Shown piece after piece: positions 1,103-63,127 of a DNA stretch of 64,000 bases. The DNA comes from Gari tellinella. Taxonomy: Eukaryota; Mollusca; Bivalvia; Cardiida; Psammobiidae. A program made the translations under genes and the position numbers. Where the stretch lies: assembly GCA_922989275.2 (NCBI GenBank), contig OV277864.1:53939550-54003549 (forward strand), written 5' to 3'. Position 1 is the first letter of the stretch. Every line of letters starts with the position of its first letter. A model generated the notes under the pieces. It worked only from the letters and a program-made list of their open reading frames with translations, was not told the origin of the DNA and did no database searches.

Positions 1103-1352
1103 TACAGTGGAGAATCTGTTATTCTTTCCCAATAAACGCGTTTACGCTAAAACTATTATTAGCAGTGCAAACAGTTTGGAGCCAGATCAGACGCCGGGTA
1201 ACCCGGCGTCTGATCAGGCTCCAAACTGTTTGCCACCAAGATAAACAAGAATTATCAGAATTGTCCAAAAATTGTACTTTTCTACGTTTTAGTGCTTTGC
1301 GTTTGCGTACGTTTGCGTTTAAACGGGAAAGAATATCAGATTCTCCACTGTA
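1103..1352 (+). mobile_element. Family A hairpin element, copy 1
   Basis: TA-flanked element of about 246 bp between the TA dinucleotides. The outer ~26 bp (CAGTGGAGAATCTGTTATTC and on) are inverted at the far end. The flank-to-centre regions differ between arms, and the centre is a ~66-bp perfect palindrome around CCGGGTAACCCGG with TGATCAGACG stems. No coding capacity; the open frames running through its arms recur in every A copy and are artefacts. Confidence 0.85.
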
Positions 1353-1523
1353 CTATTCATACTTACACTGATGTAAAATACGCGTGTATACGTATTTTTA
1401 ATTACCCCATAAATATGCCTTTTTACGCATTTAAATTATACCCCCACAGAAGAACATAGTTCCAATTTTTACAGTCATGAATATATACCATAAGAAATAA
1501 TTTCTATATCAAAGTGTAGCTTA

Positions 1524-1740
1524 ACTCATTCAACCCTGAAACTTTTACTGGACAATTCCAATTTCAAAATAAGTAAAGTCAATTTTTGATTATTTAGAGT
1601 TAATTTGACAATATATTTCAAAATGTTAAACAGTGTAGACCCTGATCAGACGGCTCCTTAATGAGAATGGGACAAGTGTAATCCTCACATGTACACCGTT
1701 TGTAAATGACGAGTTTACTCGTCGCTAGTGTTGAACGTGT
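1524..1740 (+). mobile_element. Family C element nested in D
   Basis: Starts ACTCATTCAACCCTGAAACT after TA and ends near GTTGAACGTGT. The left half of its central palindrome (GTGTAGACCCTGATCAGACG) is present but most of the right half is deleted. The right target dinucleotide has become TG. Confidence 0.7.
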
Positions 1741-1794
1741 TGAAGTAGACTGAAAGTTTAAGGCGAACTCTAATTTACTTTCAGCCTGCTTTAA

Positions 1795-2338
1795 AGGGAC
1801 TCGCAACCGGATGGTGTACTTGTCAAAATAAAATAAAATACTCAAATAAAAGCAAATTTGTGGCATTATTTGGCTTCTGACATTAAAAAAATATGATCAG
1901 TCCAAAAAAAGTCTCAAGAATCGTCACCGAATCTTAGATTTTTAGATATTTTCCATCGTTTTTCTATACCGACTAGTAGACGGTATAGTTGTTGTTGTTG
2001 CTTCTCTACACGGGCTCAGACATAAACACGAGCCGAATTACGAAGTTGTATGCACTTTCGATCGCTACACATTGAAATACGTTAAATCGATCCGAGATAA
2101 ACGGATAGTTCCGTGGTCCATTGGTCTAAGCGGTTTCCCCTATTTTGCCTTCTGTCCGCCAATGCCGGGCCCCGGGTTCGAATCCCACCAGAGACTAATA
2201 TTTTTTTTTGTTGAAATACTTTTTTTTTAAACAGAATTTCTTACATGTATCCTAAACTAATTCTTTATCATTTATATAACCGTTTGACACATATTTACAA
2301 ATTACTATTTTTAATGCACCATCTGGTTGCGAGTCGCT
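1795..2338 (+). mobile_element. Family G element, complete copy, with tRNA-like centre
   Basis: 544 bp between TTAA flanks (1791-1794 and 2339-2342). Terminal inverted repeats AGGGACTCGCAACC and GGTTGCGAGTCGCT extend into GGATGGTG/CACCATCT. The body carries a (GTT)n run, a tRNA-like segment at 2108-2194 and AT-rich arms. It sits in the D stem sequence CTGCTTTAAGTGG, whose two halves are rejoined when G plus one TTAA is removed. No open frame. Confidence 0.8.
2108..2194 (+). repeat. tRNA-like segment (SINE type) inside G
   Basis: Contains a perfect pol III B-box (GGGTTCGAATCCC) and an A-box-like TGGTCCATTGG at the expected upstream distance. The acceptor-stem halves do not pair, so this is a tRNA-derived repeat and not a tRNA gene. 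The same segment occurs at 17800-17851, 25141-25227 (opposite strand) and 35751-35840. Confidence 0.7.
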
Positions 2339-2636
2339 TTAAGTGGTCAACATTCTAACGCTGAATAAAGATTATCTTAGAATCCTTAGCTGAGTTCCGA
2401 AAAAGACTGACAGCATCCTACCCATAGACCCCACCCCTTGTACATAGTTTTAACCAAATTTTAGACCGTTTTATAAGCATGATCCACCTCACCATGCACT
2501 TAGTTGCGCAGAGCCTTAATACGTTCCGGAAGGATCCCGGCTCTTGTAATGGAAGAGGAAGAAGAAGATCTGTTTACGGGTTTTATTAATGATTCAAAAG
2601 CATATACCCAGTAATAAAGATGTTAAACTATCTTAC
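2339..2636. other. Intron of the minus-strand gene, with an alternative 3' exon candidate
   Basis: On the minus strand a strong pyrimidine tract (CTTCTTCTTCCTCTTCC) ends in ATTACAAG at 2543. Splicing the exon at 2637-2772 to this acceptor gives eight more residues (SRDPSGTY) and a stop at 2516-2518. The intron would be only 94 bases. This competes with the acidic exon at 189-515 as the gene's end. A second frame here (ILPERIKALRN, stop) looks protein-like but is out of phase with the known donor. Confidence 0.3.
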
Positions 2637-2772
2637 CATATTGCTGCTCCAGGGATTGTTTATCTCATATTGCATCTCTTTCTCAAGTTGATCTTGTTTG
2701 TATGAGGTTTTCACAAGAGTTGGTCCAACTTTCATGTTGTCCAAGCGTGGCTTCCAGTACAGCTCATAATTT
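2637..2772 (-). CDS. Exon 3 of the minus-strand gene
   Basis: 136 bases. Acceptor TTATTTTCCAG on the minus strand, donor ATG|GTAAGA. Adds one residue completed across the junction (Arg) and 45 codons, including YELYWKPRLDNMKVGP and QLEKEMQYEINNPW. No alternative frame is open throughout between these splice sites with matching phase. Confidence 0.7.
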
Positions 2773-4927
2773 CTGGAAAATAAGATAAAATTAAATGAAA
2801 TAAAATTAGAAAATATTTGTAAATAAAAAAAAAATGCGTATAACAAGCGTATAAGGAAAGTGTATACAGTGGAGAATCTGTTATTCTTTCCCGTTTAAAC
2901 GCAAACGTACGCAAACGCAAAGCACTAAAACGTAGAAAAGAACAACTTTTGGACAATTCTGATAATTCTTGTTTAACTTGGTGGCAAACAGTTTGGAGCC
3001 TGATCAGACGCCGGGTTACCCGGCGTCTGATCTGGCTCCAAACTGTTTGCCCTACAAATAATAGTTTTAGCGTAAACGCGTTTATTGGGAAAGAATAACA
3101 GATTCTCCACTGTATCACGCATAAATCCGACACCATACAGACATGCCAAGCGTATTTTAGAGAAATACTTGAGGCTTTTTAACCCGTTACCCCTACATAG
3201 CATGATTCTAATATTGAAGAGATGTGACCACTTAAAGCAGTTTGAAAGTGAAGCAGAATATAAATGTTCACATAGGACAATTTAACTCTTCAAAAATGCA
3301 CTGTTTTTAAATAATGAGTATACTCGTTGCTGGGGTTCAATGAGCTAATGCTCATGATATGAACATTTATTATATGCCTTTGTATGATATCGAGCGTTTC
3401 CGCGTGTATTTGCTCAGTAAAATACAAGAGTCTGTATCAGCCACCTTGTATCAGCCACTTTGTATTTTACTCTGACCTCGCTTTCGATTTAACGTGACGT
3501 CATTTACGTCTGTGTGTACAAGTGCCGCGTTATTCATTGTGGCAAACAAAAAATCCTGTTCTGCTTCAAATAACTAATAAATTTTGGCTCTAAAATGATT
3601 TAACAATTATTTAATTGTTTCTGGTGTGTATTCAAGGCATATAATAAACACATTACCAATTGGCAGTGTGCTACAGAGTGTTGCATTTAGCTCTCGACGT
3701 TTTTGGCGGAAACAACCGATCAGACTCGCGCCAAGGCGCTCGTCAGATCGGCTATTTCCGCCAAAAACGTCTCGAGCTAAATACATCACTCTGTATCGCA
3801 CTGTCAACTGGTAATGTGTATGTATTTAAGTATGATGCAGAAAGCCCCTAATACAAGTTTTCTTAACAATAACATGTTATCTGTCTAATGGAATTTATTT
3901 GCTACTGCACTAATCATTTAAAGCATAATAATTATTCAATCCAAACAAACCTTTGCGCTGCATCATAATGTCTTCTGTTTGCGGCACGCTCTCTGAACCA
4001 GTTGTATGCATCTGATCCTTCTGGTCTGTAAGAGAACATTGCACTCGTTAAACAGTCTGCAAGCTACGGGGTGATTAGTATTGCAAAATGTTAATATCTA
4101 GATGAGGCGCCGAGTTACTCAGCATCTCACTTGGATACAATCTTAGTGACAATCTTTTTTTAAAGATCCATAATCATGCCTTATTTATTTATTGTTCAAG
4201 ATAAACCGAAACTTGATAGGTACAGTGGAGAATCTGTTATTCTTTCCCGTTTAAACGCAAACGTACGCAAACGCAAAGCACTAAAACGTAGAAAAGAACA
4301 ACTTTTGGACAATTCTAATAATTCTTGTTCACTTGGTGGCAAACAGTTTGGAGCCTGATCAGACGCCGGGTTACCCGGCGTCTGATCTGGCTCCAAACTG
4401 TTTGCAATGCAAATAATAGTTTTAGCGTAAACGCGTTTATTGGGAAAGAATAACAGATTCTCCACTGTAAAGGCCGTAAAACTATGTAAAAACTTGTTTG
4501 TGCCATCGTTTGCCACAATCTTATATAAAAATTTAAAGCATTTTGAATCGTTAAAAATATCGTTGTTGAAAAATATCCCGCATTACCTGTTATGATAATA
4601 ATTTGGGAACGAGTCAAATTCTTTAACTGGAAGCTGTGAAATCTATTTTGAAATAATTAAGTCGATTAAAATCGTCCTGGAATAAACTTATAGTATTACA
4701 ACACCGGTATTAAATAGCATCGACATACAGAGAGAGTAAAATATCCATTAAAACACTTTTGTAAAAAAAAATATATTATATGTTTCACAGACAAGATTAC
4801 ATTCAGTCAATATCGCCAAGTGTAAGACCATTTTCTATGTAACAATCCAGTATATTAACGTTTGTTTCTCTAGAATATTAAACAATAATACTTACAAATC
4901 CCAATAGTGAAAATCTCCTTTGACCAT
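2637..4927 (-). CDS. Small multi-exon gene, unrecognised protein (81 residues visible)
   Basis: Three exons on the minus strand, 4896-4927, 3951-4025 and 2637-2772, have consensus splice sites and join without a stop. Exon 1 ends two bases into a codon, exon 2 starts with one base and ends with two, exon 3 starts with one and ends in phase 0. The peptide begins MVKGDFHYWDL, continues AYNWFRERAANRRHYDAA and then YELYWKPRLDNMKVGPTLV, ending NNPWSSNM at the last visible donor. It is rich in Trp, Tyr, Arg and Lys with no signal peptide, membrane segment or catalytic motif. I do not recognise the family. Small size, composition and an X-box-like promoter word suggest a ciliary or sperm axonemal protein, but that is only a guess. 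The introns hold A, D, N, C and G elements. The 3' end is unresolved (189-515 or 2516-2542). Confidence 0.7.
2867..3112 (-). mobile_element. Family A element, copy 2, in intron 2
   Basis: Reverse of copy 1, TA at 2865-2866 and 3113-3114. Central palindrome intact (CCGGGTTACCCGG). It lies between exons 2 and 3 of the minus-strand gene, so its hairpin would be in the pre-mRNA. Confidence 0.85.
3181..3480. repeat. D and N family fragments in intron 2
   Basis: 3181-3290 is a degraded D piece (ACCCGTTACCCC, CACTTAAAGCAG..GAAAGTGAAGCAGAAT). 3300-3345 is C-like (GAGTATACTCGTTGCTGGGGTTC). 3360-3480 matches the tail of the N element at 39330-39435 (GATATCGAGC, TACAAGAGT, TATTTTACTCTGACCTCG). Confidence 0.55.
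3626..3840. mobile_element. N fold-back element, copy 1
   Basis: Fold-back centred near 3720: CACATTACCAATTGGCAGTG on the left mirrors CACTGTCAACTGGTAATGTG on the right, with TTAGCTCTCGACGTTTTTGG mirrored by the sequence ending CTCGAGCTAA. The loop is GC-rich (CAAGGCGCTCGTC). A second, damaged copy lies at 39176-39330. Confidence 0.7.
3951..4025 (-). CDS. Exon 2 of the minus-strand gene
   Basis: 75 bases. Acceptor GTTCTCTTACAG and donor CAAAG|GTTTGT on the minus strand. Encodes PEGSDAYNWFRERAANRR and HYDAAQ with split codons at both ends that match exons 1 and 3. Confidence 0.7.
4223..4467 (-). mobile_element. Family A element, copy 3, in intron 1
   Basis: TA at 4221-4222 and 4468-4469; nearly identical to copy 2 and in the same orientation. 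From 4470 to 4890 I see only AT-rich intron sequence. Confidence 0.85.
4896..4927 (-). CDS. Exon 1 (start codon) of the minus-strand gene
   Basis: 32 coding bases from ATG (4925-4927) to a textbook donor GTAAGT read on the minus strand. Encodes MVKGDFHYWD plus two bases of the next codon. Context AAG-ATG-G has purine at -3 and G at +4. Confidence 0.65.
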
Positions 4928-5776: not shown

Positions 5777-5963
5777 GACTCAAGATAAGAGTAAAATAAA
5801 CAAATGTTACGTTTTCTCACTTATGTTCAGCTCAAAATCCTATGGTGTTACTACTTATTAGAATCGTCTCGAAGAGACGATTCTAATGAGTTGTAACACC
5901 ATAGGGTCTAATGCAGAAATAACGATTTTAGATTTTGAAAAACTCCTGTTATCTAGAGCACTG
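5777..5963 (-). mobile_element. Family K hairpin, copy 1
   Basis: Long hairpin around TCGTCTCGAAGAGACGA with arms CTCATTAGAATCGTCTC and TCCTATGGTGTTACTAC; the ends are diverged from CAGGGCTCCAGATAAG. Confidence 0.65.
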
Positions 5964-6361: not shown

Positions 6362-6706
6362 TATTATGTAATCTGTGATGATGCATGCAGTTATTATCAA
6401 TAGTTGTATTGACGTATGAGAGTTGAACAATTTGAATCGAATCTCTAATGGTTTTCATTTGAAACAGTTATACGTTATTAGCTAAGAAATGAACTATTTA
6501 TCAAAATATTCAACGCTTTTGTTACTTTAATGTTCTTTCTCATCTATGCGTTACAAGATTAATGACAATTGTTACTGCATAATATCCCATTAAAACTCAA
6601 ATTCCTTTTGCAAACATTGAACAGATTCACAATTATGTCAATTGAACTTTAAAAAGAACAATAAATGCATAAAGCATATGTTTATTTTGTAAATGCATAA
6701 AGCTTA
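6362..6706. other. No gene seen
   Basis: AT-rich sequence with no repeat family recognised and no frame bounded by convincing splice sites. Confidence 0.5.
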
Positions 6707-6894
6707 ACCCTAGCGACGAGTATACTCGTCATTTACAAACAGTGTACCTGTAAAGAATACACTTGTCATATGCAGGGTCTACACTGTTTGTCATTTTGAA
6801 ATAAAGTGTTAAAATCAACCCTAAATAGTCAAAATTGGACTAGACTTATTTTGAAATTGGATTTTTCCATTAAAAGTTTCTGGGGTGAATGAGT
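6707..6894 (-). mobile_element. Family C element, copy 2 (core lost)
   Basis: TA flanks at 6705-6706 and 6895-6896. Reads ACCCTAGCGACGAGTATACT to TTTCTGGGGTGAATGAGT. Only one half of the central palindrome (GGGTCTACACTGTTTG) remains. Confidence 0.75.
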
Positions 6895-7062
6895 TAAAAG
6901 CGTTTTATTTATGCGTTTGTTTTAAAATGGTGTGTAAGCACCAGTTAGAGACCTGACAAGGAATAACACGATGTGTTATCTTGATCCAAACGGTTAACAA
7001 ATTGCAGCGAATTCTGAGTATGGCCAAATATAGAGGGGAGTCATACCTATTATCTTGTATTA

Positions 7063-7307
7063 ACTCATTATCCCCTGAAACTTCCAATGGACAATTCCAG
7101 TTTAATATAAAGGCTGGTCCATTTTCGACTATTTATGGTGTTTTTTTTATAATATATTTCAAAATAACAAACAGAGAAGACCCTGATCAAAGGGGTGCTG
7201 CAGGAGCCCTCTTATCAGGGTTGCACTGTTTGCATAGTACAAGTGTACTCTTCACATGAACACTTTTGGTAAAGGACGCATTTATGCGTCACTAGGGCTC
7301 AATGAGT
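7063..7307 (+). mobile_element. Family C element, copy 3
   Basis: TA at 7061-7062 and 7308-7309. Ends ACTCATTATCCCCTGAAACT and GGGCTCAATGAGT; the core is imperfect (AGGGGTGCTGCAGGAGCCCT). Confidence 0.8.
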
Positions 7308-7833
7308 TAATATAAGCACTTAACAACGCCCGTCTTTTAATATACGAAATGGGGAGACATATCAAGCAATAGTATGTTACCATATTTCAATAAAACTGTT
7401 CGAGATCATAGTTTTATACATGGGACCATAGTTTGGATTCAGTTCAATAAAAACTTTTCGAATTAAATGCTATCACTCTAGAAAAATGGTGTAATCTTAA
7501 CGTTATTGCGAATTTCTGGTACATGTTGCAAAGAGGTTTGATACCGGGTGTGATTTGGCGTCTTATATGCGGCTGATATGTTCGAGACTCTTATATGTTA
7601 GTTTGGCATCTTATCTGTGTCTGTACATGTACTGTAAAAGACTCTGAGATTCAACTTTGCGTTAAATTTTAAGGGAATCGTTGTTCGGAGGTCTGTTGTA
7701 GGGAGGGAGCACTGTATTGACTTAGATTGACGTGAAATAACTTGATCGCAGACAACCGTATTCTTTTTCAGCACCTTTCTCTCAATCCTGTATTACATTG
7801 CCCGTGTATTCGGTATTATAATCTCTTTGTAAA
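7308..7833. other. No gene; R-element end at 7680-7715
   Basis: Mostly unassigned. GTTGTAGGGAGGGAGCACTG followed by TA at 7691-7712 is the right terminus of an R element whose left end I cannot find with confidence. Confidence 0.5.
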
Positions 7834-8279
7834 CATACCCAGAGTATAAAGGTAATTTGCAAATAGTTTGATACTAAACAGACACCGCGTTACGCGGCGT
7901 CTGATCAGAATCCAAACTGTTAGACAGTCATTTCAATATTTCTTCAGTCTAAATACTTAAAACATAAAATTGAGAAATAGAAGCAGACGACAACTTTTTA
8001 AAGTAGATGACGTCATGGCATTAACTCTTTCCTCCCTAAAACTTTAAATAGACAATTCCAGTTTCCATTTAAGTCTAGTCCATTTCTGACTTTTAAGGGT
8101 TGTTTTTGTCAATTTTGACATTACTGACAAACAGCGAAGACCCTGATCAGAGGGCTCCTTTCGGAGCCCTCTGATCTGGGTCTTCACTGTTTGCATAGGA
8201 CAAGTGTACTATTCTCATGTACACTGTTTGAAAAGCACGCCTATATGCGGGACTAGGGTTCAAAGGGTTAAAGGGGGTA
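7834..8279 (-). mobile_element. Family B element carrying a nested C
   Basis: B body with core GACACCGCGTTACGCGGCGT, the arm AGAAGCAGACGACAACTT and a perfect CRE TGACGTCA at 8008-8015. Its terminal AGTGAAGGGGT appears to be interrupted by C at 8024-8268, the remainder AAAGGGGG following after 8270. Confidence 0.6.
8024..8268 (+). mobile_element. Family C element, copy 4 (best preserved)
   Basis: TA flanks at 8022-8023 and 8269-8270. ACTCTTTCCTCCCTAAAACT to GGGTTCAAAGGGT. The central palindrome GAGGGCTCCTTTCGGAGCCC lies within CAAACAGCGAAGACCCTGAT. Confidence 0.85.
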
Positions 8280-9560: not shown

Positions 9561-9638
9561 TTACAATATGTGCCATAGATACGTTTCAAATGTGAAACAA
9601 GGTTTCGAGTTATAATTCAACAGATAAAATATGGCTTA

Positions 9639-9838
9639 ATCCATTTGTGCCCACTATCCCATATATGGGACAAAGGCAAACAATGTAGACTCTGACCAGA
9701 CGCAACACTGTTTGCTGATAGTAATTTCAATATAAAACAAAATAGAAATGAAAAGTTTGACCAACCATCCATTTGATAAAAAAAAAATGGACTAATCCGA
9801 TATATAAACATGGAAGAATCCACTGGGCGTAAATGGGT
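9639..9838 (+). mobile_element. Family F element, copy 1 (core collapsed)
   Basis: TA flanks; ATCCATTTGTGCCCACTATC to GGGCGTAAATGGGT, with CCCATATATGGGAC near the left. The central palindrome has shrunk to GACCAGACGCAACACTGTTT. Confidence 0.75.
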
Positions 9839-9904
9839 TAATTCAAAGCATAGAAGTTTGGTTGTTATTACCACTTTCTAATCGATTTGAAGACTTGTTG
9901 GTTA

Positions 9905-10885
9905 GAAAAACAAATAAAGAGTGAGCAACCAATGTACAGTATAACCTCTCTATTACGACCACAAAATATTGTCAAATATAAGCCGTCTAAGACAGGTGCT
10001 GCTTAAAGCAATGTGAAAGTGAAAATTTATCTTTCACATTGCTCTAAGCTGTCACCTGCCTTTTATACAGACAATTAGCCTTCTTTTTAGTAGTTGTAAT
10101 AGAGAGGTTCTTCTGTATTTGTTATACGGGCAATTTAACAGAGAGAGTAAAACCTATGTATTTGTTATTTGGGCAATCGAACAAAGAGTGTTGAACCAAT
10201 TTATTTATTCTGCGGGAAAGCAAACAAAAATGTGAAACCAATGTATTTTTTATTCGGCCAATCAAACGAATTATATTTAAACAATACATTTGCTATACGG
10301 GCACTGAAACAAATAGTGTAGGACCAATGTATTTGTTATATGGGCACTCGAGAAAAAAAAAGATGATTTAAAGTAATCGAACAAGGAATGTGAGACCAAT
10401 GTATTTGTTATACGGGCAAACAAAAAACGATTGTGGAAACAATATATTTATTATATGGGCACTCGAACAAAGACTGTGGAGTAAATGAATTTGTTATTAG
10501 AGTAATCGAACAAGGAATATGAGACCAATGTATTTGTTATACGGGCAATCAAAAAACGATTGTGGAAGCAATATATTTGTTATATGGGCACTCGAACAAA
10601 GAGTGCGGAATAAATGAATTTGTTATTCGGGTAATCTATACAAGAGTGTGACGCCAATGCATTTGTTGTACGGGCAGTCAAACAAAGAGTGTAGAACGAA
10701 TGTATTTGTTATACGGGAAATTGTTTGTTAGCAAATCGAACAATGTGTGTGGAATTTATGTATTTGTACTACGAGCAAATTGAACAAAGAGCGTGAGTAC
10801 TAGCGTGAACTATGGAACCAATGTATTGGGGCAAATCGAACAAAAGTGTGCAACCAATGTATTTGTTTTACGGGCAAATAGGTAA
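9905..10885 (+). repeat. 43-bp minisatellite with 129-bp higher-order repeat
   Basis: About twenty diverged copies of a 43-bp unit (ACCAATGTATTTGTTATACG then GGCAATCGAACAAAGAGTGT). Variant order repeats every three units: GAGACCAATGTATTTG at 10392 recurs at 10521, exactly 129 bp later, with matching neighbours (CAAAAAACGATTGTGG, AGTAAATGAATTTG or ATAAATGAATTTG). An E element interrupts the left edge. Confidence 0.85.
9937..10115 (+). mobile_element. Family E element, copy 3, inserted in the minisatellite
   Basis: CAGTATAACCTCTCTATTAC to GTAATAGAGAGGTTCTTCTG, flanked by TA. Excising it with one TA restores ACCAATG-TA-TTTGTTATACGG, the exact minisatellite unit. The core is simplified (CAATGTGAAAGTGAAAATTT). 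Confidence 0.85.
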
Positions 10886-11238
10886 ATTTCTGTTTCCAAA
10901 GAATTCTGATTTTTTTTAGAAAACGCACAGAAACGTAGCTCGGCCGACTTCTAACAATCATCCATCTCTGATCATTGACCTCTCTTATTGAAACTATCGT
11001 TTGAGTCTCCCTTGGTAGTCTATTTCGACTCCCATATATTGCAGACGACATATGGCGCCCAGGAAATTCGATCATGCGCAGTCACTGCCCTCTGAGGGTA
11101 ACAATACACATCTTGGTCGCGTGAAGCTTCTGCATTAAATTGTTTGTGTTCTGAGAAATTCACGTTCAGCCAGCGGTAGGATTCGAACTCAAGACCTTCC
11201 GAGTCAAGGCCAGACGCTTGACAAAAACGCCATGGTTA
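10886..11238. other. Unassigned sequence with a tRNA-like SINE remnant
   Basis: 11160-11235 on the minus strand has a B-box (GAGTTCGAATCC) and a tRNA-like preceding arm (GTCTGGCCTTGACTC), typical of a SINE head. 10886-11110 holds an open frame on the minus strand starting beside CTGCGCATGATCG, but its composition and decay into the minisatellite argue against a gene. Confidence 0.4.
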
Positions 11239-11461
11239 GCTCTTTAGCTGCCAAGTTTTATCGAAATATCAAAATAGCGTCTGCATTGGAAGGGTCGTCT
11301 GCTATATTTTTAAGTCAACTTTAGGACTGTTTTGACTGAAGAAAAGTCGATACGAGTATCAAACAATTTGGATCCTGATCAGACACCGCGTTACGCGGCG
11401 TCTGATCAGAATCCAAATTGTTTGCAAAGTCGCCTTTTGGCGAAATTGGCAGTGAAAGAGT
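11239..11461 (+). mobile_element. Family B element, B2 subtype
   Basis: TA flanks; GCTCTTTAGCTGCC left and GGCAGTGAAAGAGT right. Core GACACCGCGTTACGCGGCGT inside CAATTTGGATCCTGATC. Confidence 0.8.
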
Positions 11462-11734
11462 TAATTTTCAAAGGCAACCATATGTTCTGAATAGGCCGGG
11501 GATATTTTAGGACGACTGTTAGGTTCAGTTCTATTTCTGCCTTTTATCTTCCAGACAGAAATTGTGCTAGATGTTCAAGCATATAAATCTGCTGATGTGC
11601 ATCAAGACATTTTTCTCTATCTTATTGCACCTGCAAAACACCTCACCCTTACCAAGCTAAATACTGCCGTCTGCTTAAATAAATCGTCTGAAAAAATATT
11701 ACAAATCAGTTTATATGATTGAAGTTAAGTTATA

Positions 11735-12712: not shown

Positions 12713-12930
12713 AAACCCCTTCACTGGCATGGCGTCATCAATTTTAAACTAGTGTCGTCTGCTTTTATTTCTTAAATTTTAATTTTTGCTATTTTGACTG
12801 AAGAAATATTGAAATGAGTGTCAAACAGTTTGAATCCTGATCAGACACCGCATAACGCGGCGTTTGATCAGGATCCAAACTGTTTGCAAAAAAAAAACTG
12901 TTGTGCTCGGGGTAAGGCAGTGAAGGGGTT
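12713..12930 (+). mobile_element. Family B element, nearly complete
   Basis: AACCCCTTCACTGGCATGGC to GGTAAGGCAGTGAAGGGGTT. Arm TCGTCTGCTTTTATTTCTTA, core CACCGCATAACGCGGCGT. A poly-A slippage lies beside the right core arm. Confidence 0.85.
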
Positions 12931-13207
12931 AAAACGTTCATTCCTTTGGACTTACTGCTTGATCTTGATCTAATAGCAAGACTAAATTTATTAAGTATTT
13001 TCAACTTGGATGAATTACGATACCTAATTAAAATTCAGCCGGTTTCTAAGAATTTATTGTGCAATATATCCCGTTTAATGGCTCAAATGGACGCGATTAG
13101 CTTGAATATATTGCACCGCAATGTATTTAAATGAGCAACCCTTTAAATGCCCAAATACCTCTTTTCTACAAAAAATGAATTTATTAGCATGCATTTTGTT
13201 CATTAAT

Positions 13208-13545
13208 ACAGTGCTCCGTCTCTACAACAACATCCAGTGGAAGACAAGAAGTACGGTGGAGAATCTGTTATTCTTTCCCAAAAAACGCGTTTACGCTAAA
13301 AAACAATTATTTGCAGTACAAACAGTTTGGAGCCAGATCAGACACCGGGTAACCCGGTGTCTGATCAGGCTCCAAACTGTTTGCCACCAAGATAAACATG
13401 AAATATCAGAATTGTCCGAAAGTCGTTCTTTTCTACGTTTTAGCGCTTTGCGTTCGTTTGCGTTTAAACGGGAAAGAATAACAGATTCTCCACTGTATGT
13501 GTGTGTTTCGGAGAGAGTTGTTGTAGGGAGGGAAATCGACTTACA
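13208..13545 (+). mobile_element. R element split by an A element
   Basis: CAGTGCTCCGTCTCTACAAC (13209-13228) is the R left end and GAGAGTTGTTGTAGGGAGGG (13511-13530) part of its right end. A sits between at 13254-13495. The R terminal GAGCACTG is mutated to AAATCGAC. Confidence 0.65.
13254..13495 (+). mobile_element. Family A element, copy 4, inside R
   Basis: TA flanks at 13252-13253 and 13496-13497. Core stem reads GACACCGGGTAACCCGGTGT, with a compensated change that keeps the hairpin paired. Confidence 0.85.
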
Positions 13546-15117: not shown

Positions 15118-15278
15118 AGGAATAAACAACATATTTTTGACGTTCATGACGGTATGACCACATTAGCTTCGCAGGGGGTAAATTCCGTAAACGCCCGAAG
15201 GGCGTTTTCGATAAATTTACCCCCCGAAGCTAATGTAGTCATACCGTCATGAGCGGCAAAGAGATGTTGTTTATTCCT
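15118..15278. mobile_element. O fold-back: near-perfect 161-bp hairpin
   Basis: AGGAATAAACAACAT is mirrored by ATGTTGTTTATTCCT. The inner stem GACGGTATGACCACATTAGC pairs with GCTAATGTAGTCATACCGTC, and the tip is AACGCCCGAAGGGCGTT. No coding frame and no clear target duplication. Confidence 0.75.
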
Positions 15279-15925
15279 TATATTTATATTTATATTTTCT
15301 GTCTTGTCAATTTAATGTGTTTATTGGCCAGATTTGTTTTTCTGTATAAGAATTTATCATATACCGGTCAAAGAGGTTTGATAGATGTAATGTCGATGTA
15401 ATAGCCATTCCAGTTTCTAAATATGGTGAGAAAGTAGTCCCAACTACATGTACTGTAACTGTATTAAAAATTCAGGATTTTTTCCAGTAAACTTTCTCTC
15501 TGTGAATGGAAATGACTTACAAGGCAAACAAATAACAGTGCAACTTGAATATCTATTGCAAAAGCACATTCTAAAATTACAGGTCGCGGTTGTTTTCTTA
15601 ACCCATTTACACACATAGCAACGCGATGGCAACGACCTATGGGTCTGTATCACTGTGTCATATTACCGTCGACCAATGGGAGCTTAGTGTTAAGTGCCCG
15701 ATGTAGTCTATTTGAAGAAGTCCACGGATAGCACGGGGGAAATCCGAACTGGTTAAATCCAGATTCGAATAGTAGGTTCATCGGCAGATGACTGCATATT
15801 TTTTAATAGGATTACATAAGGACTTTACAGGTTGAATGTAAATATTAAAGAATGAACTGAACTGGATATTATCAAATAGTTGGTTTTTCCGCAGGGATAA
15901 AACATTTTGTCGAATTCGCTTATTA
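15279..15925. other. No gene seen
   Basis: Contains (TATTTA)n-like text at 15281-15297 and no splice-bounded frame. The small minus-strand frame at 15444-15653 has no protein-like features. Confidence 0.4.
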
Positions 15926-16171
15926 CAGTGGATAATCTGTTATTCTTTCCCAATAAACGCGTTTACGCTAAAACTATTATTTACAATATAAACAGTTTGG
16001 AGCCAGATCAGACGCCGGGTAACCCGGCGTCTGATCAGGCTCCAAACTGTTTGCCACCAAGATAAACATGAATTATCAGAATTGTCTAAAAATTGTTCTT
16101 TTCTACGTTTTAGTGCTTTGCGTTTGCGTACGTTTGCGTTTAAACAGGAAAGAGTAACAGATTCTCCACTG
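15926..16171 (+). mobile_element. Family A element, copy 5
   Basis: TA flanks at 15924-15925 and 16172-16173; left end CAGTGGATAATCTG. Core intact. 16172-16530 beyond it holds nothing recognised. Confidence 0.85.
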
Positions 16172-16530
16172 TACCCAATTTAACAACTATGAAATGAAAT
16201 ACGATGACAATCTGTCAAATTTATTTAATTTATTTAAGGTTTGGATGATTCAAGATTGGTATATATGGCTTATTACCAAATAAATAATACATAATAAAAT
16301 ATGTTTATCTGCACTCAAAATAAGATTTTATCATTATGACGTTGACCATCATGTCTTATCACCCCCTTTCACGTTCACTGCAATTCGTCTGCTCGCACAT
16401 ATAGTGTCTGCTTTTATCTCTAACGTTCAGATTCACTTCTAATTTAATGAGTTTAACACCATATGATTTGGTGTTGAAGAGACACACACACTCATCCCAC
16501 TCAAATCTGGAGCCCTGGATAAGTCTGGCC

Positions 16531-17275: not shown

Positions 17276-17308
17276 ATAATATCATCTCCATACGTTCCTG
17301 ATTGTATA

Positions 17309-19046: not shown

Positions 19047-19110
19047 TACGCTAACAAATCTTAACACTTGCTAATATACCGAGAATTGAATAAGCTTCCT
19101 CTTGCCCTTA

Positions 19111-41550: not shown

Positions 41551-41561
41551 TAATGCTACAA

Positions 41562-48960: not shown

Positions 48961-49130
48961 GTACTACTTTTCACACGGTTAGAGTGATGGTCATTCAGCT
49001 TCCCTTTAGATGAACATGCTCATGTCAGACTGTGCATACACCGATTTTACGACAAAATGCACATTCAGACTTATTTATTTCGTCACACTACCTGAAACTC
49101 AATTATCTCTTTCAACATTAACCAATTACC

Positions 49131-49371
49131 CCATAGGTTGATTCTATTTTTGAAAATAGGTGACCACTTAAAGCAGGTTGAATGTAAAGCAGAATGTGAC
49201 TTAGGCACATTAAATTCTGCTTTACTTTCAGCCTGCTTTAAGCTTTTATCTGCCTGGGTATAGTTCTTTCGCTACATATTCATGACTGTATTAAATGGAA
49301 ATATTTTCTTCAGTGAAAAATAAATTAGAGGTGTAAAAAAGCATAGATTTATGGGGGGGGGGGGGATGGGT
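49131..49371 (-). mobile_element. Family D element, with G-run
   Basis: ACCAATTACCCCATAGGTTG to GGATGGGT with TA flanks; core GTGACTTAGGCACATTAAAT. A 13-G run at 49353-49365 has expanded in the terminal TATGGGGTAATGGGT. Confidence 0.75.
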
Positions 49372-49967
49372 TAAAATATAGCCATTTGATCTTCATTTGC
49401 AAATAGTGAAGACCCTTATTAGAGGGTTTTCTCTTATCTCGATCTACACTTTTTACTAATTCAGAGCAGTATTTACACCGACTCCAAGTATTCTGGGTCA
49501 TGAGTTGGCAAATTAAATGATCAACAAGGGATCCGGAGGAGCCCTCTTATCTGGAGCTATACTTGTTGCTAATTCAGATGAGTATTTTTTAAACTACCCA
49601 GAATTTCAAGTAGACTGGTTTTTGTTTTGATAACATAAATGATCCACAAGGGAACTTTATAACGCCCAAGAGGGACTTCGTGTTGAAAGAGTTTAAATCT
49701 GGTTACAAACTTTAGATGTCTAACAGTCTTATTGATTTTATTTTGTATTTCAGGTAGATCTACAAGTTTAGCTGTATCAAGATCAGTTCTGACAGATTGA
49801 CAAGACAACCGTGTAGACTCCAGTATTCTAGATTTATAACAGCAGGGCAAATTGATATGGTAGCATCATAAAATGACATTCCGTCATATTCATGAACAGG
49901 TAAATGAAAGTAACAGTTTATAGCTGTCAGTAAAGTTTGTTACTGTTTGTATAGTTCATATTGTGTA
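49372..49967. other. C-type core scraps, no gene
   Basis: 49397-49460 (AAATAGTGAAGACCCTTATT, ATCTCGATCTACACTT) and 49530-49570 (GGAGGAGCCCTCTTATCTGG). Otherwise unassigned. Confidence 0.4.
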
Positions 49968-50401
49968 AAGCACTGGCCCTAAATTAGGACCATTAAAAGG
50001 AAGGCTAATTGATAGTATTTAGTCAACATATTAATTAACTTGGTACTTCAGAGTAATATGAAAGTAAAACGGACCTTTCTGTCTTACTCAAAGCAGTCGT
50101 CTGCCTTAACCCTTACTCCATAGCCTGTTTCTAGTTTTGAAGACAATGTGCCCACTAAAGCAGGTTAGAAGAAGAATACACCTTAAGGTGCATTCTGCTT
50201 TACTTTCAGCCTGCTTTAAGCTACCATCTGTAAGGATATAGAAAATATTTCTTGTTCATGAATGTATAGATTTGAGCTATTTTCTTCAGAGGAAGAATAA
50301 ATGAAATGCGCTAAAAGGTGCTTCTATGGGGGAAAGGGTTAAAGTTAAATAAAAAATATTCAATCTCAGTGGACAATGGTTCAAAAGAGAGGGGTTTTAA
50401 T
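49968..50401 (+). mobile_element. Family E element with nested D
   Basis: E left arm (GACCATTAAAAGGAAGGCTA), shortened core (AAAACGGACCTTTCTGTCTT), GTCGTCTGCC, [D], then GGTTCAAAAGAGAGGGGTTT. Both E ends are diverged. Confidence 0.65.
50109..50339 (-). mobile_element. Family D element nested in E
   Basis: ACCCTTACTCCATAGCCTGT to TATGGGGGAAAGGGT; TA flanks; core ACACCTTAAGGTGCATTC. Confidence 0.8.
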
Positions 50402-50548: not shown

Positions 50549-50690
50549 CTCCAGATAAGGTGCATTTTTCAAAAAGTAAAATCTTTATGTCCATCTGCAT
50601 TAAACCCTATGGTGTCACTGCTCATTAAATTTGTCTCTTTGAGATGATTCTATTGAGTAGTTACACCATTGGATTTGGTGATGGTATAAC
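50549..50690 (+). mobile_element. Truncated K element
   Basis: GCTCCAGATAAGGTGC, AAACCCTATGGTGTCACTGC and the tip TTTGTCTCTTTGAGATGATT. Confidence 0.65.
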
Positions 50691-50992
50691 TAGGATAGTG
50701 TTTCTAGTGGCTTTAATATAGCTTAACCCACTGAACCAAAGTGAAGATTATTACCTGTGACAAGTACATTTGTCCTATGCAAACAGTGTAGTGAGTTGCA
50801 TAGCATCCTGAGACAATGACTGCTGTGTTTACATTTAAGGGATTTCTCCCAAAATCATTTAATTTTTTTTACAATTAATGACAAGCAATGCCGACCTAGT
50901 CACCTAGATCATATTTTTTTTAATTGGAAGATACCATTTCTTTTCAAAAGTATAAACATGTACATGTATTTGCTTTAAGTACAATATTGGTC

Positions 50993-51241
50993 AACTCATT
51001 CACACCTGAAACTTCAAATGAAAATACCAACTACCAATTTTCTCTTGACCATGTGTGCCAATTTAGAGTTGTTGTGTGCAATATTTTGCAAAATGGCAAA
51101 CATTGTAGACCCTGATCAGAGGGCTCCTGAAGGAGCCCTCTGATCAGGGTCTACACTGTTTGCATAGGACATGTGTACTCGTTGCAGGTTTAATGTTCGT
51201 AAATGACCAGTATTATAAAGTCATCCCTAGAGTTGAACGTG
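50993..51241 (+). mobile_element. Family C element, copy 7
   Basis: ACTCATTCACACCTGAAACT to CCCTAGAGTTGAACGTGT; core GAGGGCTCCTGAAGGAGCCC. A further C end (ACACGCTCAACCCTAGGGAT) follows at 51279. Confidence 0.8.
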
Positions 51242-51887: not shown

Positions 51888-52077
51888 CAGGGCTCCAGAT
51901 AAGGGGAGTATTTCAAAAAAATAAAATCTTTATTGCTGCATTAAATCCTATGTTGTCACTACTCATTAGAATAATCTCGAAGAGTTGAATCTAATGAGTA
52001 GTGACACCATAGGATTTGGTGCTGAATGAGAGAGATGTTGGATTTATTCAGTTTACTCCCCCTTATCTGGAGCCTTG
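51888..52077 (+). mobile_element. Family K hairpin, copy 3
   Basis: CAGGGCTCCAGATAAGGGGA mirrored by CCCCCTTATCTGGAGCCTTG; tip AATAATCTCGAAGAGTTGAA. No target duplication is evident. Confidence 0.8.
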
Positions 52078-52130
52078 TTCATGATGCAGATGAGACACTA
52101 CAGTATGCGATTCAAACCGTTTTGAATTTA

Positions 52131-52322
52131 TGTGCTCCAGATAAGAGGGAGTAACCTGCACAAATCCAATATTTTCTCACTTATTTTAGCACCAAATCCT
52201 ATGGTGTTACTACTCATTAGAATTGTCTCTTTGAGACGATTCTAATGAGTAGTGACACCATAGGGTTTACAACAGAAATAAAGATTTTAATTTTTGAAAT
52301 ACTCCCCTTATCTGGAGCCCTG
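52131..52322 (-). mobile_element. Family K hairpin, copy 4, opposite orientation
   Basis: TGTGCTCCAGATAAGAGGGA to CTTATCTGGAGCCCTG; only 53 bp from copy 3, so the two together form a larger inverted pair. Confidence 0.8.
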
Positions 52323-52437: not shown

Positions 52438-52557
52438 ACTCATTCCTCTCTGGAACGTCATATTAACAATTCCAGCTTCCATTTAGTCTGGTCCCATTTT
52501 AGACTTATAAGGATTGGAAACTGGAATTGTCCATTAGAAGTGGCAGAGTGAATGAGT
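52438..52557 (+). mobile_element. Core-less C element
   Basis: CTCATTCCTCTCTGGAACGT to TAGAAGTGGCAGAGTGAATG with TA flanks, folding through AACAATTCCAGCTTCCATTT and AAACTGGAATTGTCC. 120 bp: outer arms joined without the TGATCAGA core. Confidence 0.75.
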
Positions 52558-53375: not shown

Positions 53376-53568
53376 CAGGACTCCAGATAAGGGGAGTATT
53401 TCAAAAACTAAAATCTTTTTTTTTGCAGTAAATCCTATGGTGTCACTACTCATTAGAATCGTCTCTTCGAGACGATTCTAATGAGTAGTAACACCATAGG
53501 TTTTGGTGCTGAAATGAGTGAGAAAGTAGAGGATTTCTTCTGTTTACTCCCTCTTATCTGGAGCCCTG
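53376..53568 (+). mobile_element. Family K hairpin, copy 5
   Basis: CAGGACTCCAGATAAGGGGA to CCTCTTATCTGGAGCCCTG; the tip TCGTCTCTTCGAGACGA is perfect. Confidence 0.8.
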
Positions 53569-58660: not shown

Positions 58661-59716
58661 AGCTCACCTAAGCTAGCTCAGGGTGAGCTTTTGCAATCCT
58701 TGAATGTCCGGCGTCCGGTGTCAACAATTTTAGTGTTTACACTCTAGAGGCCACAATATTTATCCAATCTTTTTCAAACTTGCTCAGATGGTATATTGCC
58801 ATAAGAGTTCGAATGAGTTCGATTATGGTTGTAATCGGACAAATAGGTCATGAGTTATCTACCTTTGAACTGCTGAAAATGCCATATTTAACAGTGTTTA
58901 CACTCTAGAGGCCACAGTATTTATCCAATCTTTCTAAAACTTGCCCAGATTGTATATGACCATAAGAGTTCAGATGAGTTCGATTTTGGTTGAAATCTGA
59001 CAAATAGATCAAGAGTTATTTACCTTTAAATTGCTGAAAATGCCATATTTAACAGTGTTTACACTCTAGAGGTAAACAAATTTTATTCAATCTTTCTCAA
59101 ACTTACTCAGATTGTATATTTCCATAAGACTTCGGATGAGTTCATTTATGGTTGTAATCGGATCAATAGGTCAAAAGTTATATACCTTTGAATTGCTGAA
59201 AATGATATATTTGACAGTGTTTACGCTCTAGAGGCCACAATATTTATCCAAGCTCTCTCAAACTTGCCCAGATTGTATATGACCATAAGAGTTCGGAAAA
59301 AGGGTGATTATGGTTGGAATAGGACAAATAGATCAAGAGATTTCTACCTTTGAATTGCTGAAAATGCCATATTTTACTGCGTTTACACTCTTGCAACTAC
59401 AGTTTTCAATGGATTGTGATTATACTTGTACACAAAGGATGTAGCTATACGTTCTGGAAGGAGTGCAATTATTGTTGAAATGCTATAATCAGTGTGGCAA
59501 TAGTTACCTGCCCTTGATATACTTTGAAATGCTAGAAAAAGGCTTCATTTCAGTATTCTTTAGGCTTTAGTTATCTGCCTTTGATGTACTCTACTATACT
59601 AGAGTAGGTCGACAAACTTGAATAGATTTAGAATAAAACGGGTGAAATTCAAAGGTAAAGCTATCAGGCTTCATTACAAATGGTGAGCGATATCAGGGCC
59701 TTCAGGCCCTCTTGTA
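58661..59716 (+). repeat. Tandem-core (pearl-like) element L1
   Basis: Left arm AGCTCACCTAAGCTAGCTCA, GGGTGAGCTTTTGC, GTCCGGCGTCCGG. Four ~161-bp core repeats start CAGTGTTTACACTCTAGAGG at about 58732, 58892, 59053 and 59215 (steps 160, 161, 162), with a decayed fifth at 59377. Right arm GGTGAGCGATATCAGGGCCT, TCAGGCCCTCTTGTAG contains a hairpin. The arm/core/arm design with ~160-bp cores is that of pearl elements described in oysters. Confidence 0.8.
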
Positions 59717-60542: not shown

Positions 60543-60730
60543 CAGGGCTCCAGATAAGAGAAGTACAAAAAAAAAATCTTTATTTCTGCATTAAACCCTA
60601 TGGTGTCACTACTCATTAGAATCGTCTCTTTGAGACGATTCTAATGAGTAGTGACACTATAGGATTTGGTGCTGAATTGAGTGAGAAAATGTTGGATTTG
60701 TTCAGTTTACTTCCTATTATCTGGAGCTGT
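60543..60730 (+). mobile_element. Family K hairpin, copy 6
   Basis: CAGGGCTCCAGATAAGAGA to CCTATTATCTGGAGCTGTG; tip TCGTCTCTTTGAGACGA. Confidence 0.8.
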
Positions 60731-60879
60731 GGACTCGCAGAGATATTGACCCATTTCCATCAATACAGGAGTTATCTTTATTGACACATGTTTAGCGAAC
60801 TGTTTTACTTGGTTTGCAAAATGTCAGATTTCTTTGAACTGAAAACAACAGTAAAACCTCCCCTCAATAACCACCATTA

Positions 60880-61087
60880 ACCCTTAGCCCGCCAAATAAA
60901 TTGTTGTCTGCTATATTTCTCGTCTGCTTTAAGTTTCAAAGTGCTTCAAAGTTGCTCAAAATTGCTGAAAATGTTGTCCGAGTGTCAAACAGCTTGGATC
61001 CGGATGAGACGCCGAGTTACTCGGCGTCTCATCTGGATCCAAGCTGTTTGCATATGGAGCTATAGTCGTGAGTGGCAGACTAAGGGT
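60880..61087 (+). mobile_element. Family B element, third end type
   Basis: ACCCTTAGCCCGCCAAATAA to GAGTGGCAGACTAAGGGT with TA flanks; core GAGACGCCGAGTTACTCGGC, stem CAGCTTGGATCCGGATGAGA. Confidence 0.85.
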
Positions 61088-61130
61088 TAAAAGGGCTAAA
61101 TGGATACCAGTAAAGGCAAGGGGCTACTTA

Positions 61131-61360
61131 ACCCTTTGCCTCATAGCCTGTTTCTAGTTTTGAAGATAGGTGACCACTGAAAGCAGGTTGAAAGTAAAGC
61201 AAAATGGGCCTTAGGCGCATTCTGCTTTACTTTCTACCATCTGCTAGGATATAGAAAATATTTCTAATCGTATTAGTTATGACTTTATAAAGTGGAACTA
61301 TTTTCTTCAGTGGAAGAATAAATGAAAGGCATAAAAAGGCGTATATATGGGGTAATGGTT
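61131..61360 (-). mobile_element. Family D element
   Basis: ACCCTTTGCCTCATAGCCTG to ATATGGGGTAATGGTT; core GGGCCTTAGGCGCATTC; the right stem is shortened. Confidence 0.8.
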
Positions 61361-61366
61361 TAATGT

Positions 61367-61485
61367 AGGGCTCCAGATAAGGAGAGTGTTTCAAACACTT
61401 GCACGTAAATCTTTATTTCTGCATTAAACCCTATGGTGCCACACCTCATGAGAATTATCTCTTAATTATAACCTTGCCCAATATG
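61367..61485 (+). mobile_element. Truncated K element
   Basis: AGGGCTCCAGATAAGGAGAG, AAACCCTATGGTGCCAC; stops after GAGAATTATCTC. It begins six bases after the preceding D. Confidence 0.65.
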
Positions 61486-61560
61486 AAAATGTACCAGCTT
61501 AACTATAAAATTGACTTAAAACAGCAAGGAACCAATTTGGTAGGAAAGAGTTGAGTGTCA

Positions 61561-61807
61561 ACCTATTACCCCATAAATACAACCTTTTTACGACTTTAAT
61601 TTATTCCTCCACTAAAGGAAATAGTTCCAATTCATACAGTCAGGAATGTGTAGCAAAATAAATATTTTCTATATTCTATCAGATGATTGCTTAAAGTAGG
61701 CTGAAAGTAAAGCAGAATGCGCCTTAAGGCGCATTGTACTTTATTTTCAACCTGCTTTAAGTAGCCACCTGTTTCCAAAACTAGATACATGCTATGGGGT
61801 AATGGGT
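61561..61807 (+). mobile_element. Family D element
   Basis: ACCTATTACCCCATAAATAC to GCTATGGGGTAATGGGT; right TA, left dinucleotide CA; core GCGCCTTAAGGCGC. Confidence 0.8.
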
Positions 61808-61900
61808 TAAACAAATCCTATCAGAAACCTGTGCAGACCCTGATCAGACAGTGGACATGAAGGGGCAGCTAGCGCTAGTCTGATATGGGTCTACACAATA

Positions 61901-62297
61901 ACCTGCTTCTATATTTGAAGACAGGTGATGTCTTAACCCATTACCCCATAGCCTGATTCTTGTTTTAAGGAAAGATTGATCACTAAAAGCATTCTACTGT
62001 TCTTTCAGCCTGCTTTAAGCTATTTTCTGCTGGGATATAGAAAATATTTCTTATGATACATATTCGTGACCGAATAAAATGTGGTAATGGGTTAAAGCAG
62101 GTTGAAAGTAAAGCAGAATGCACTCTAAGGTGCATTCTGCTTTATGTCAGCCTACTTTGAGCTATATGATCTGCTAGAATAGAGAAAATATTCCTTAAAT
62201 TATTACTAATATTGATGACTCAATAAACTAGAATTTTTTTTATCTAGTGGAGGAAAAAATAGAATGTTCTGAAAAGTGTATTTATAGTGTAAGGGGT
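61901..62297 (-). mobile_element. Family D element with a second D inside
   Basis: ACCTGCTTCTATATTTGAAG, GGTGATGTCT, [D], AGCAGGTTGAAAGTAAAGC, core ACTCTAAGGTGCATTC, end AGTGTAAGGGGT before TA. A C-type core remnant (GACCCTGATCAGACAGTG) lies just left at 61836. Confidence 0.75.
61936..62092 (-). mobile_element. D nested in D
   Basis: ACCCATTACCCCATAGCCTG to AATGTGGTAATGGGT; TA at 61934-61935 and 62093-62094. It landed in the TTAA of the outer stem CTTAAAGCAGG; its own core is deleted (157 bp). Confidence 0.8.
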
Positions 62298-62395
62298 TAT
62301 AAGATTTTGAATGCGCTATAAACAGGAGAAGTGTTAATTGAACGTTTACGTCAAAGCAGTTCAATTGTAATCGCTGTATGTAAGGTATGTGCTGT

Positions 62396-62593
62396 AAAGC
62401 AAAACCTCTTTATTACGACCATAAACCAAAGGCTTATTCAAAGCCAGTTTATAGCTTAAAGCAAGGTGACAGAAAAACAGAAAGCTCCTAAAGGAGCTTT
62501 CTGTTTTACTGTCACTTTGCTTTAAGCTATCACCTGTCATAAACATCTTATAATTAAATGAAATTTTGTGGTCGTAATAGAGAGGTTCTACTG
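62396..62593 (+). mobile_element. Family E element
   Basis: AAGCAAAACCTCTTTATTAC to TCGTAATAGAGAGGTTCTAC; core AAGCTCCTAAAGGAGCTT perfect. Confidence 0.85.
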
Positions 62594-62654
62594 TATTGTA
62601 AGGCTTGTGTACTATTCCTAACAATGTATGACGGTACCACTAATTTTCTCTGTA

Positions 62655-62889
62655 ACCTGGAGAAGACGTTATTCTTTCCCGCTTAAACGCAAATGAAATG
62701 CAAACTCATCACAATAAAAGATAGAAAAGGTCACCTTTTCCACAATTTTTACTCTTCGTGTTAGTCTGAGTGGCAAATTGTTTGGAGCCTGATCAGACGC
62801 CAATGAACCCAGCAGCTGATCAGGCTCCAAAATGATATCATAGCTTTAGCCTAAACCCATTTTTGGGGAAAGAATAACGTCTTTTCCCC
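62655..62889 (-). mobile_element. Family A element, core decayed
   Basis: CCTGGAGAAGACGTTATTC to AATAACGTCTTTTCCCC; core stem GACGCCAATGAACCCAGCAG no longer pairs fully. Confidence 0.75.
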
Positions 62890-62891
62890 TA

Positions 62892-63127
62892 ACGCATTAC
62901 TCCGTAAATACACCTTTTTACCCCTCTATTCTATTCCTCCACTGAAGAAAACAGTTCAAATTTATACAGTTATAAAACTGTACCAAAAGAAATCATTTCC
63001 AATCCTTTCAGATAGTAATTAAAGCTTGCAGAATGAAAGGCACATTCTGCTTCATTTTCAATCTGCTTTAAGTGGTCACCAGGTCCTGTCTTCAAACATC
63101 TAAGAATCAGGCTTTTGGGTAATGGGT
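62892..63127 (+). mobile_element. Family D element abutting A
   Basis: CGCATTACTCCGTAAATACA to GCTTTTGGGTAATGGGT; TA at 62890-62891 is shared with the A right flank. Core reduced (GAATGAAAGGCACATTC). Confidence 0.75.

Follow-up and report, generated by a model that had tools for sequence, protein, structure and literature searches.

A 64,000-base stretch of the genome of the bivalve Gari tellinella (GenBank assembly GCA_922989275.2, contig OV277864.1, positions 53,939,550–54,003,549; hereafter the window, numbered from 1) is dense in interspersed repeats of eukaryotic style. These include two DNA hairpins of different sequence, termed core1 and core2, each of which lies inside short transposable elements of two target-site classes, TA and TTAA. 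Core1 is a 65-bp hairpin (66 bp in element family C) that consists of CAAACAGTnnGGAnnCTGATCAGA, a GC-rich tip, and then the mirror. An earlier reading of the sequence (the original prediction) had reported this inner stem as common to several families, and it was present where predicted. Core2 is a hairpin of ∼95 bp of the GCTTAAAGC type and comprises the D and E stems of the same reading. Profile searches (E ≤ 0.05) detected 47 core1 and 27 core2 loci in the window and no match to either core in 20 control windows simulated with a first-order Markov model. The 48 strongest hairpins of the window, a list classed by reading, comprised 25 core1 copies, 11 core2 copies, 6 hairpins of a third type and 6 others. 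The modules of the element families studied account for 13,011 of the 64,000 bases.

The carrier elements are short (∼180–260 bp), have inverted terminal repeats and a target site at both ends, occur in multiple copies, and have no capacity to code for a transposase, as expected of miniature inverted-repeat transposable elements (MITEs). A transposase domain was likewise not found in 38 scanned open reading frames (ORFs), out of the 130 stop-to-stop ORFs of at least 70 amino acids in the window. A and H are the only TA elements among the families examined here, with TA on both sides and CAGT ends as in Tc1/mariner or pogo elements. The sequence TTAACYCWTT forms the termini of families B, C, F and E and of the B-like elements G and J. 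TTAA, exact or near, was found at both ends of C, F, E, G, J and the B-like element with its core at 35951, and one B copy has TTAG at one end. MITEs of the piggyBac type have TTAA target sites, and Kolobok also uses TTAA. On account of their TTAA ends, B, C, F, E, G and J are putatively assigned to the piggyBac-derived elements, a likeness that extends to the CYC-type termini of B, C, F and E. Long terminal inverted repeats that make up most of the element, as in Foldback elements, are not seen in A and the TTAA families, where the hairpin lies inside the element, away from its centre, and the arms are alike only in their terminal part. The original prediction had described TA flanks throughout and had suggested that all TA-flanked families may share a transposase; B, C, F and E in fact end in TTAA, and a common transposase for all families was rejected in view of the two target-site types.

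Core1 is thus carried by one TA family (A) and several TTAA families (B, C, F and B-like), and core2 by a single family of each class, H (TA) and E (TTAA). Clearly different ends enclose core1 in A, B, C and F. They are not all unrelated, as had been claimed: the ends of A do differ, but B, C and F have their terminal ∼10 bp in common, and F and C somewhat more.

Family A is a TA MITE of ∼250 bp with a 28-bp terminal inverted repeat, TACAGTGGAGAATCTGTTATTCTTTCCC, and all eight aligned copies have TA on both sides. The copy at 1103–1352 (plus strand) has core1 at 1168–1232 between arms of 65 and 120 bp. Further plus-strand copies lie at 13252–13497 (core1 at 13319–13383), 15924–16173 (15989–16053), 17307–17556 (17372–17436) and, more diverged, 18808–19048 (18873–18937); those on the minus strand lie at 2865–3114 (2985–3049), 4221–4469 (4340–4404) and 29715–29964 (29835–29899). 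Two old A-like elements on the minus strand, at 38957–39172 (core1 at 39044–39108) and 62658–62889 (62774–62838), have the core flank CCACTC, as do B-like elements. At 17569–17701 an A-type end runs into different sequence with an open frame, without a core and without a Pfam match; it may mark the border of a longer element related to A.

The B copy with the TTAG end lies at 11236–11464 (minus strand; core1 at 11360–11424, arms of 124 and 40 bp). A second, at 12714–12932 (minus; core1 at 12822–12886), has a short arm of 46 bp and a far end that was unmatched in the end scan. The B-like TTAA MITEs lie at 35911–36155 (plus; core1 at 35951–36015), 39806–40022 (minus; core1 at 39916–39980; type J, TTAACTCTTTGCACGG) and 60877–61090 (minus; core1 at 60986–61050; type G, TTAACCCTTAGTCTGCC). 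Family F has a copy at 19108–19332 (plus) whose core1, at 19149–19213, forms a perfect 31-bp stem, a copy at 40564–40793 (minus) that lies within an H element and has TTAA at both ends, and a copy at 9636–9841 (plus) with core1 partly missing. Family C is found at 8021–8271 (plus; core1 at 8128–8193), in the apparent right terminal repeat of a B element and with TTAA at both ends, and at 21127–21336 (minus; 21205–21270) and 29096–29337 (plus; 29194–29259). The positions of C in B and of F in H, each with TTAA at both ends, support insertion at TTAA. The left arm and core1 (51097–51162) of a C2 subfamily member lie at 50991–51162 (plus), and an inverted pair of C2-type elements, ∼160 bp apart, occupies 6704–7310. 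The original prediction also listed a core-less and a core-only form. The former, at 52438–52557 (plus), does lack a core and is an inverted duplication of a C arm; the latter, at 63190–63262, is a core of C2 type that lacks a recognised end at 30–150 bp, more simply read as a decayed element.

Family H has TA-flanked ends, TACAGTAAAACCTC, which we take to be pogo-like. Its better kept copies, all on the plus strand and with TA on at least one side, lie at 30092–30301 (core2 version D at 30149–30243), 9935–10117 (a shortened core2 at 9991–10059) and 62395–62595 (version D at 62445–62538); a copy at 40514–40931 (minus; core2 at 40796–40873) is interrupted by F. Family E carries core2 version E at 38829–38923 in its copy at 38709–38962 (minus; arms of 120 and 39 bp). 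Other E copies lie at 38310–38561 (minus; core2 at 38431–38517; arms 121 and 44 bp), 49118–49374 (plus; 49157–49253; 39 and 121 bp), 50106–50342 (plus; 50148–50231; 42 and 111 bp), 61128–61363 (plus; 61166–61243; 38 and 120 bp) and 61560–61810 (minus; 61680–61772; far end unmatched in the end scan). Queries of D and E matched each other, the best at ∼1e-11 to 1e-13 and others more weakly, and by this measure the two are versions of a single core. The predicted kinship of the D and E stems therefore stands, but D has no ends of its own: of nine loci assigned to D, eight carry an H end and the other matches H weakly. A separate D family was rejected; D is the core of H.

The tips of a C-type core1 (8128–8193) and a D-type core2 (30149–30243) have CAGArrGCTCCT in common, with agreement at 10 of 13 bases. 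The probability of such a match is ∼4e-4 for a single comparison and an estimated ∼0.02 after some 40 comparisons, so that the common tip is only suggestive.

Core identities were calculated for 30 near-full copies of the 47 core1 loci, the loci omitted here and from the tree and arm sets being mostly truncated or strongly decayed. Mean core1 identity was 0.98 within A, 0.80 between A and B, 0.76 between A and F, 0.70 between A and C, and 0.65 between B and C, and families mostly have their own version of the core. The original prediction had named, as evidence against itself, cores that group strictly by terminal family and are no more alike across families than random palindromes. The cores do group largely by terminal family, but the mean identity across families (0.65–0.80 among A, B, B-like, C and F) is far above chance. 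In a tree of the same 30 copies, support was 100/99 for a C clade, 87/89 for a clade of A with the old A-like copies, 87/70 for an F clade and 89/97 for C and F together; A without the old copies was not a separate group, B-like cores formed no resolved group, 19 of 25 inner branches had support under 80, and the bootstrap had not settled. In a core2 tree of 19 of the 27 loci, a 100/99 branch divided the D cores of H elements from the E cores of TTAA elements. Since the cores sort by terminal class, the hairpins would have crossed between TA and TTAA at least once each and not continually; the trees fit one or few crossings per core. The predicted movement of cores between terminal modules is upheld to the extent that two hairpins each occur in both classes, and the ongoing shuffling that it implied is not, as the cores group by class.

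Outside the hairpins, the arms behaved differently from the cores. With terminal repeats removed, 26 long and 21 short hand-picked arms were compared. Among 28 family pairs of long arms only B–G, B–J and G–J reached p ≤ 0.01 (p = 0.003–0.01), followed by G–C (p = 0.02) and B–E (p = 0.033); none of 21 family pairs of short arms did so. No pair involving A or H reached this level (H in long arms only), and A against TTAA families gave p = 0.24–0.89 for long and 0.33–0.66 for short arms. With terminal repeats included (36 comparisons, uncorrected), p ≤ 0.01 was obtained for the left ends of F–C (p = 0.001) and C–J and for the right arms of G–J. On these comparisons the TTAA families appear partly related through their ends and arms, and A and H are not detectably related to the TTAA families outside the hairpin.

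The explanation that we favor, with a little better than even confidence, is that nascent MITEs on rare occasions took up a ready-made hairpin and were then amplified. MITEs of the two target-site classes would have the plan of an end and arm, a hairpin, and a second arm and end, with the two hairpins serving as ready-made internal modules. Each hairpin would have passed between the TA and TTAA classes on one or very few occasions, as a new MITE was born. The filler might have been copied from a neighbouring hairpin while an excision gap was repaired (abortive gap repair was reportedly described by Rubin and Levy in 1997, as cited in PMC4877112 and PMC2213677), or a nested insertion might have been followed by deletion. 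The transposase that recognises the ends of the new founder would then have amplified it. For core1 the direction was probably from TTAA to TA, because more of its carrier families are TTAA elements and the flank CCACTC is found in both old A-like and B-like elements; core2 may have moved as a unit. The hairpin may also help its carrier to multiply. Such an advantage is plausible, since sequence inside a MITE can affect how readily it moves, as reported for mPing (PMC9921582).

The edge of the similarity was profiled in 27 core1 copies. Between old A-like and B-like copies, identity was 0.69 and 0.78 in the two core1 arms. On the right it was 0.73 over the first 6 nt outside (MCACTC) and 0.27 beyond; on the left it was 0.34 over the last ten bases and 0.25 further out. 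For all A copies against B-like copies the 6-nt right flank gave 0.51. Flanks of A against those of F and C gave 0.16 to 0.45, values that amount to noise in such AT-rich flanks. At the right edge of core2, the 10 nt next to the inner motif had an identity of ∼0.48 and the sequence further out 0.33. These profiles show a hairpin-bounded unit for core1, which for core2 is only assumed. The abrupt edge bears on vertical descent, according to which one old hairpin element gave rise to all carriers of a core as its arms and ends drifted beyond recognition, selection kept the hairpin, and a change of ends switched TTAA and TA, with no movement of cores. At a core identity of ∼0.80, flanks of equal age should still align unless they are unconstrained, and the similarity around core1 falls to background within ∼6 nt. 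Vertical descent also needs a change of target site with both ends rewritten at once, and needs it twice, in A and in H.

The coincidence of the common core1 unit with the hairpin would be expected if the hairpin were itself mobile, a fold-back unit inserted into several MITE families. This we consider improbable. Seventeen of the 47 core1 loci have no recognised end within 30–150 bp, as free units might, but these loci look decayed, and core-only mobile forms are not supported. When the bases of the cores in A, B, F, C, H and E were inspected by eye, no clear direct repeat was seen; in F the left side reads ATAGG and the right side CTAATAGG, with a shift of 3 in register. The cores moreover sort largely by family, unlike the outcome of many separate insertions.

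In a search limited to 30–150 bp from each core, at least one end was found at 30 of 47 core1 and 20 of 27 core2 loci (a fraction of 0.206 for random positions) and both ends of one kind at 19 of 47 and 11 of 27 (0.057 for random positions, part of which lie within elements). Both ends were found for 11 TTAA elements with core1 and 8 with core2, the latter including one chimera and one composite. In those outside family C, the shorter arm was 40–46 bp with core1 (8 of 8) and 35–44 bp with core2 (8 of 8, including the chimera at 3222 and the composite at 61968). Elsewhere it was 66–78 bp in C (3 of 3), 65–67 bp in A (8 of 8) and 50–57 bp in H (3 of 3). Where a single TTAA end was found, it lay 107, 46, 42, 143, 136, 106 and 52 bp from core1 and 47, 39, 38 and 48 bp from core2; the value of 80 bp at 41381 belongs to the end of an F element. 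We know of no report of a hairpin at a set distance from one end as a feature of piggyBac-type MITEs.

Two different hairpins in much the same position in TTAA elements whose arms are mostly unalignable can be an inherited layout or a constraint. Vertical descent is favored by the common terminal 10 bp and partly common arms of the TTAA families and by a layout, with a short arm of ∼40 and a long arm of ∼110–120 bp, that most non-C elements have in common. On another reading, the hairpin would be a working, portable part ∼40 bp from one end of non-C TTAA elements. It might join the ends or expose them as single strands and so raise transposition under any transposase; different hairpins would be interchangeable there, and selection for pairing, not ancestry alone, would keep the arms changing together. 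We put this forward as a speculation that is probably wrong.

Co-change of the two arms was examined in 17 chosen copies out of the 30 near-full ones. Across 24 outer pairs of core1, 90% of cells were paired, and pairing fell to 23–40% when the partner was slid by 1 to 3 columns. Five of the 24 pairs were invariant. Two-sided changes were seen at 9 of the 24 pairs, a count reached in 1 of 500 shuffles, and in 24 cells, a count reached in none of 500; the number of further pair types was unremarkable (108 of 500). These statistics are inflated by kinship among the copies, and the structure was derived from the same sequences. Two-sided changes at 9 of 24 pairs fit the palindrome kept by selection that vertical descent supposes. 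A second detail on the same side is an A·A mismatch at position 17 of core1, present in nine of the ten A copies, two of the four C copies and two of the eleven B-like copies (53730 and 31538); the copy at 60986 has A facing C instead. All of these exceptions have the same orientation, as assigned by us from arm length where known and otherwise from the flank. Taking both sides together, we regard vertical descent as unlikely, though the likeliest of the alternatives.

When folded as single-stranded DNA, four core1 copies gave −36 to −40 kcal/mol and one core2 copy −54.7 kcal/mol, which is 13 to 20 standard deviations below shuffled sequences. Stable hairpins of RNA-precursor size might have come from host sequence or an RNA gene and been captured independently by each class, but this origin is very improbable: no Rfam family was found in the window at the gathering threshold, and core1 carriers of both classes agree in fine detail, down to the mismatch at position 17.

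Nested insertion of hairpin MITEs, invoked by the original prediction, was confirmed in three forms: C in B, F in H, and an H end with core2 in the core1 of an F element. The last of these (41194–41552, minus strand) has its core1 interrupted at 41327–41475 by the left end of H and core2, and the right end of H is missing. A chimera at 3179–3347 (plus) consists of the left end of E, half of core2, and then the right arm and end of C. Such nested and chimeric cases show how new combinations of end and core can arise; a mobile TA element with a newly gained TTAA-type core is not among them. An old A-like element at 24235–24640 has a core1 apparently split at the tip by ∼195 bp. Alongside the H insertion in the core1 of F, this split is a hint that insertions are drawn to the tips of hairpins.

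Several points weigh against capture across the two classes. The window covers only 64 kb of the genome, and within it no element is caught between the TA and TTAA states; the E/C chimera joins two TTAA elements. Both trees have few columns and mostly unresolved branches and, because they are unrooted, give no direction of transfer. Plain divergence within the TTAA class, with its TTAACYC termini and related arms, may explain much. The edge of core2 is blurred, and its left side lacks a clear step. In young A copies the 6-nt flank agrees less well with that of B-like elements, and some flank comparisons away from B reach 0.36–0.45 in AT-rich sequence. Finally, the right arms of A and C gave p = 0.018 in 1 of the 36 uncorrected comparisons, a similarity that did not hold with terminal repeats removed (p = 0.24). 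On balance the passing of hairpins between kinds of transposon looks old and rare, not ongoing.

The elements resemble pogo/Tigger and Tc1/mariner MITEs in the TACAGT ends and flanking TA of A and H, and differ in that the hairpins of A and H also occur in TTAA elements. A module common to otherwise unrelated kinds of element is described for MER6/MER6A, a Tc1/mariner MITE carrying the V domain of V-SINEs (SINE, short interspersed nuclear element; PMC6887750). There the module lies between mariner ends of 56–57 and 101–104 bp, compared with ∼65 and 120 bp in A. In MER6, however, a SINE body is shared with a retroelement, whereas here two hairpins each occur in two target-site classes of DNA transposon. 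Foldback4 of Drosophila (PMC2955051) is likewise a palindromic non-autonomous family whose internal modules are inserted, deleted or substituted, but this variation lies inside a single family whose ends are constant, unlike the constant hairpin between differing ends seen here. For Galileo, the relevant passages of PMC4168063 present interrupted gap repair or template switching as a repair route to non-autonomous copies, a change within a family and not a transfer of hairpins between classes. Bari MITEs with internal sequence unrelated to Bari are mentioned in another report (PMC4877112). Hairpins common to TA and TTAA MITEs were unreported among the literature matches listed, which came from open-licence papers and make a weak negative, and six core motifs had no match in open-licence paper texts. 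A scan for the core pattern gave no match in genome contigs and one in viral contigs (L001), which lies within a phage-type ORF and has no blastn match to the window.

Classification of MITEs goes by the ends, and the interior usually passes for leftover filler. In the present elements it is the interior that is shared and the ends that vary, twice over and across two target-site classes. If this holds genome-wide, it would offer a concrete route to the birth of new MITE families and a direct way to test if elements multiply better with an internal hairpin. In repeat libraries, clustering by overall similarity may lump together elements that different transposases move.

A third hairpin, core3 (GAGACGATTCTAATGAGTAGT), served as a control. 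Its 8 loci have one flank type, CTCCAGATAAGGGGAGT, on both sides at 6 of them as judged by eye (one of the 6 decayed on one side) and on one side at 50594 and 61418, and so not every hairpin in the window is common to several families. Core3 with flanks CTCCAGATAAGGGGAGTATTTC was noted at 5827–5917, 50594–50683, 51936–52276, 53423–53513, 60585–60676, 61418–61461 and 63393–63484.

An ORF of 371 codons at 21852–22964 contains a Sushi domain (Pfam, 1.5e-11) and is likely part of a host gene. A protein search with this ORF returned 2929 candidates, and one with a translated A element returned 1; none scored in either. ARAGORN found no transfer RNA (tRNA) in the window, and by eye positions 2110–2200 resemble the head of a tRNA-derived SINE. 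Two long, near-complete palindromes at 3648–3819 and 15118–15278, with arms of 85 and 79 bp, look dissimilar. Tandem arrays of 181-bp and 161-bp units occupy 46162–46970 and 58732–59391, respectively.

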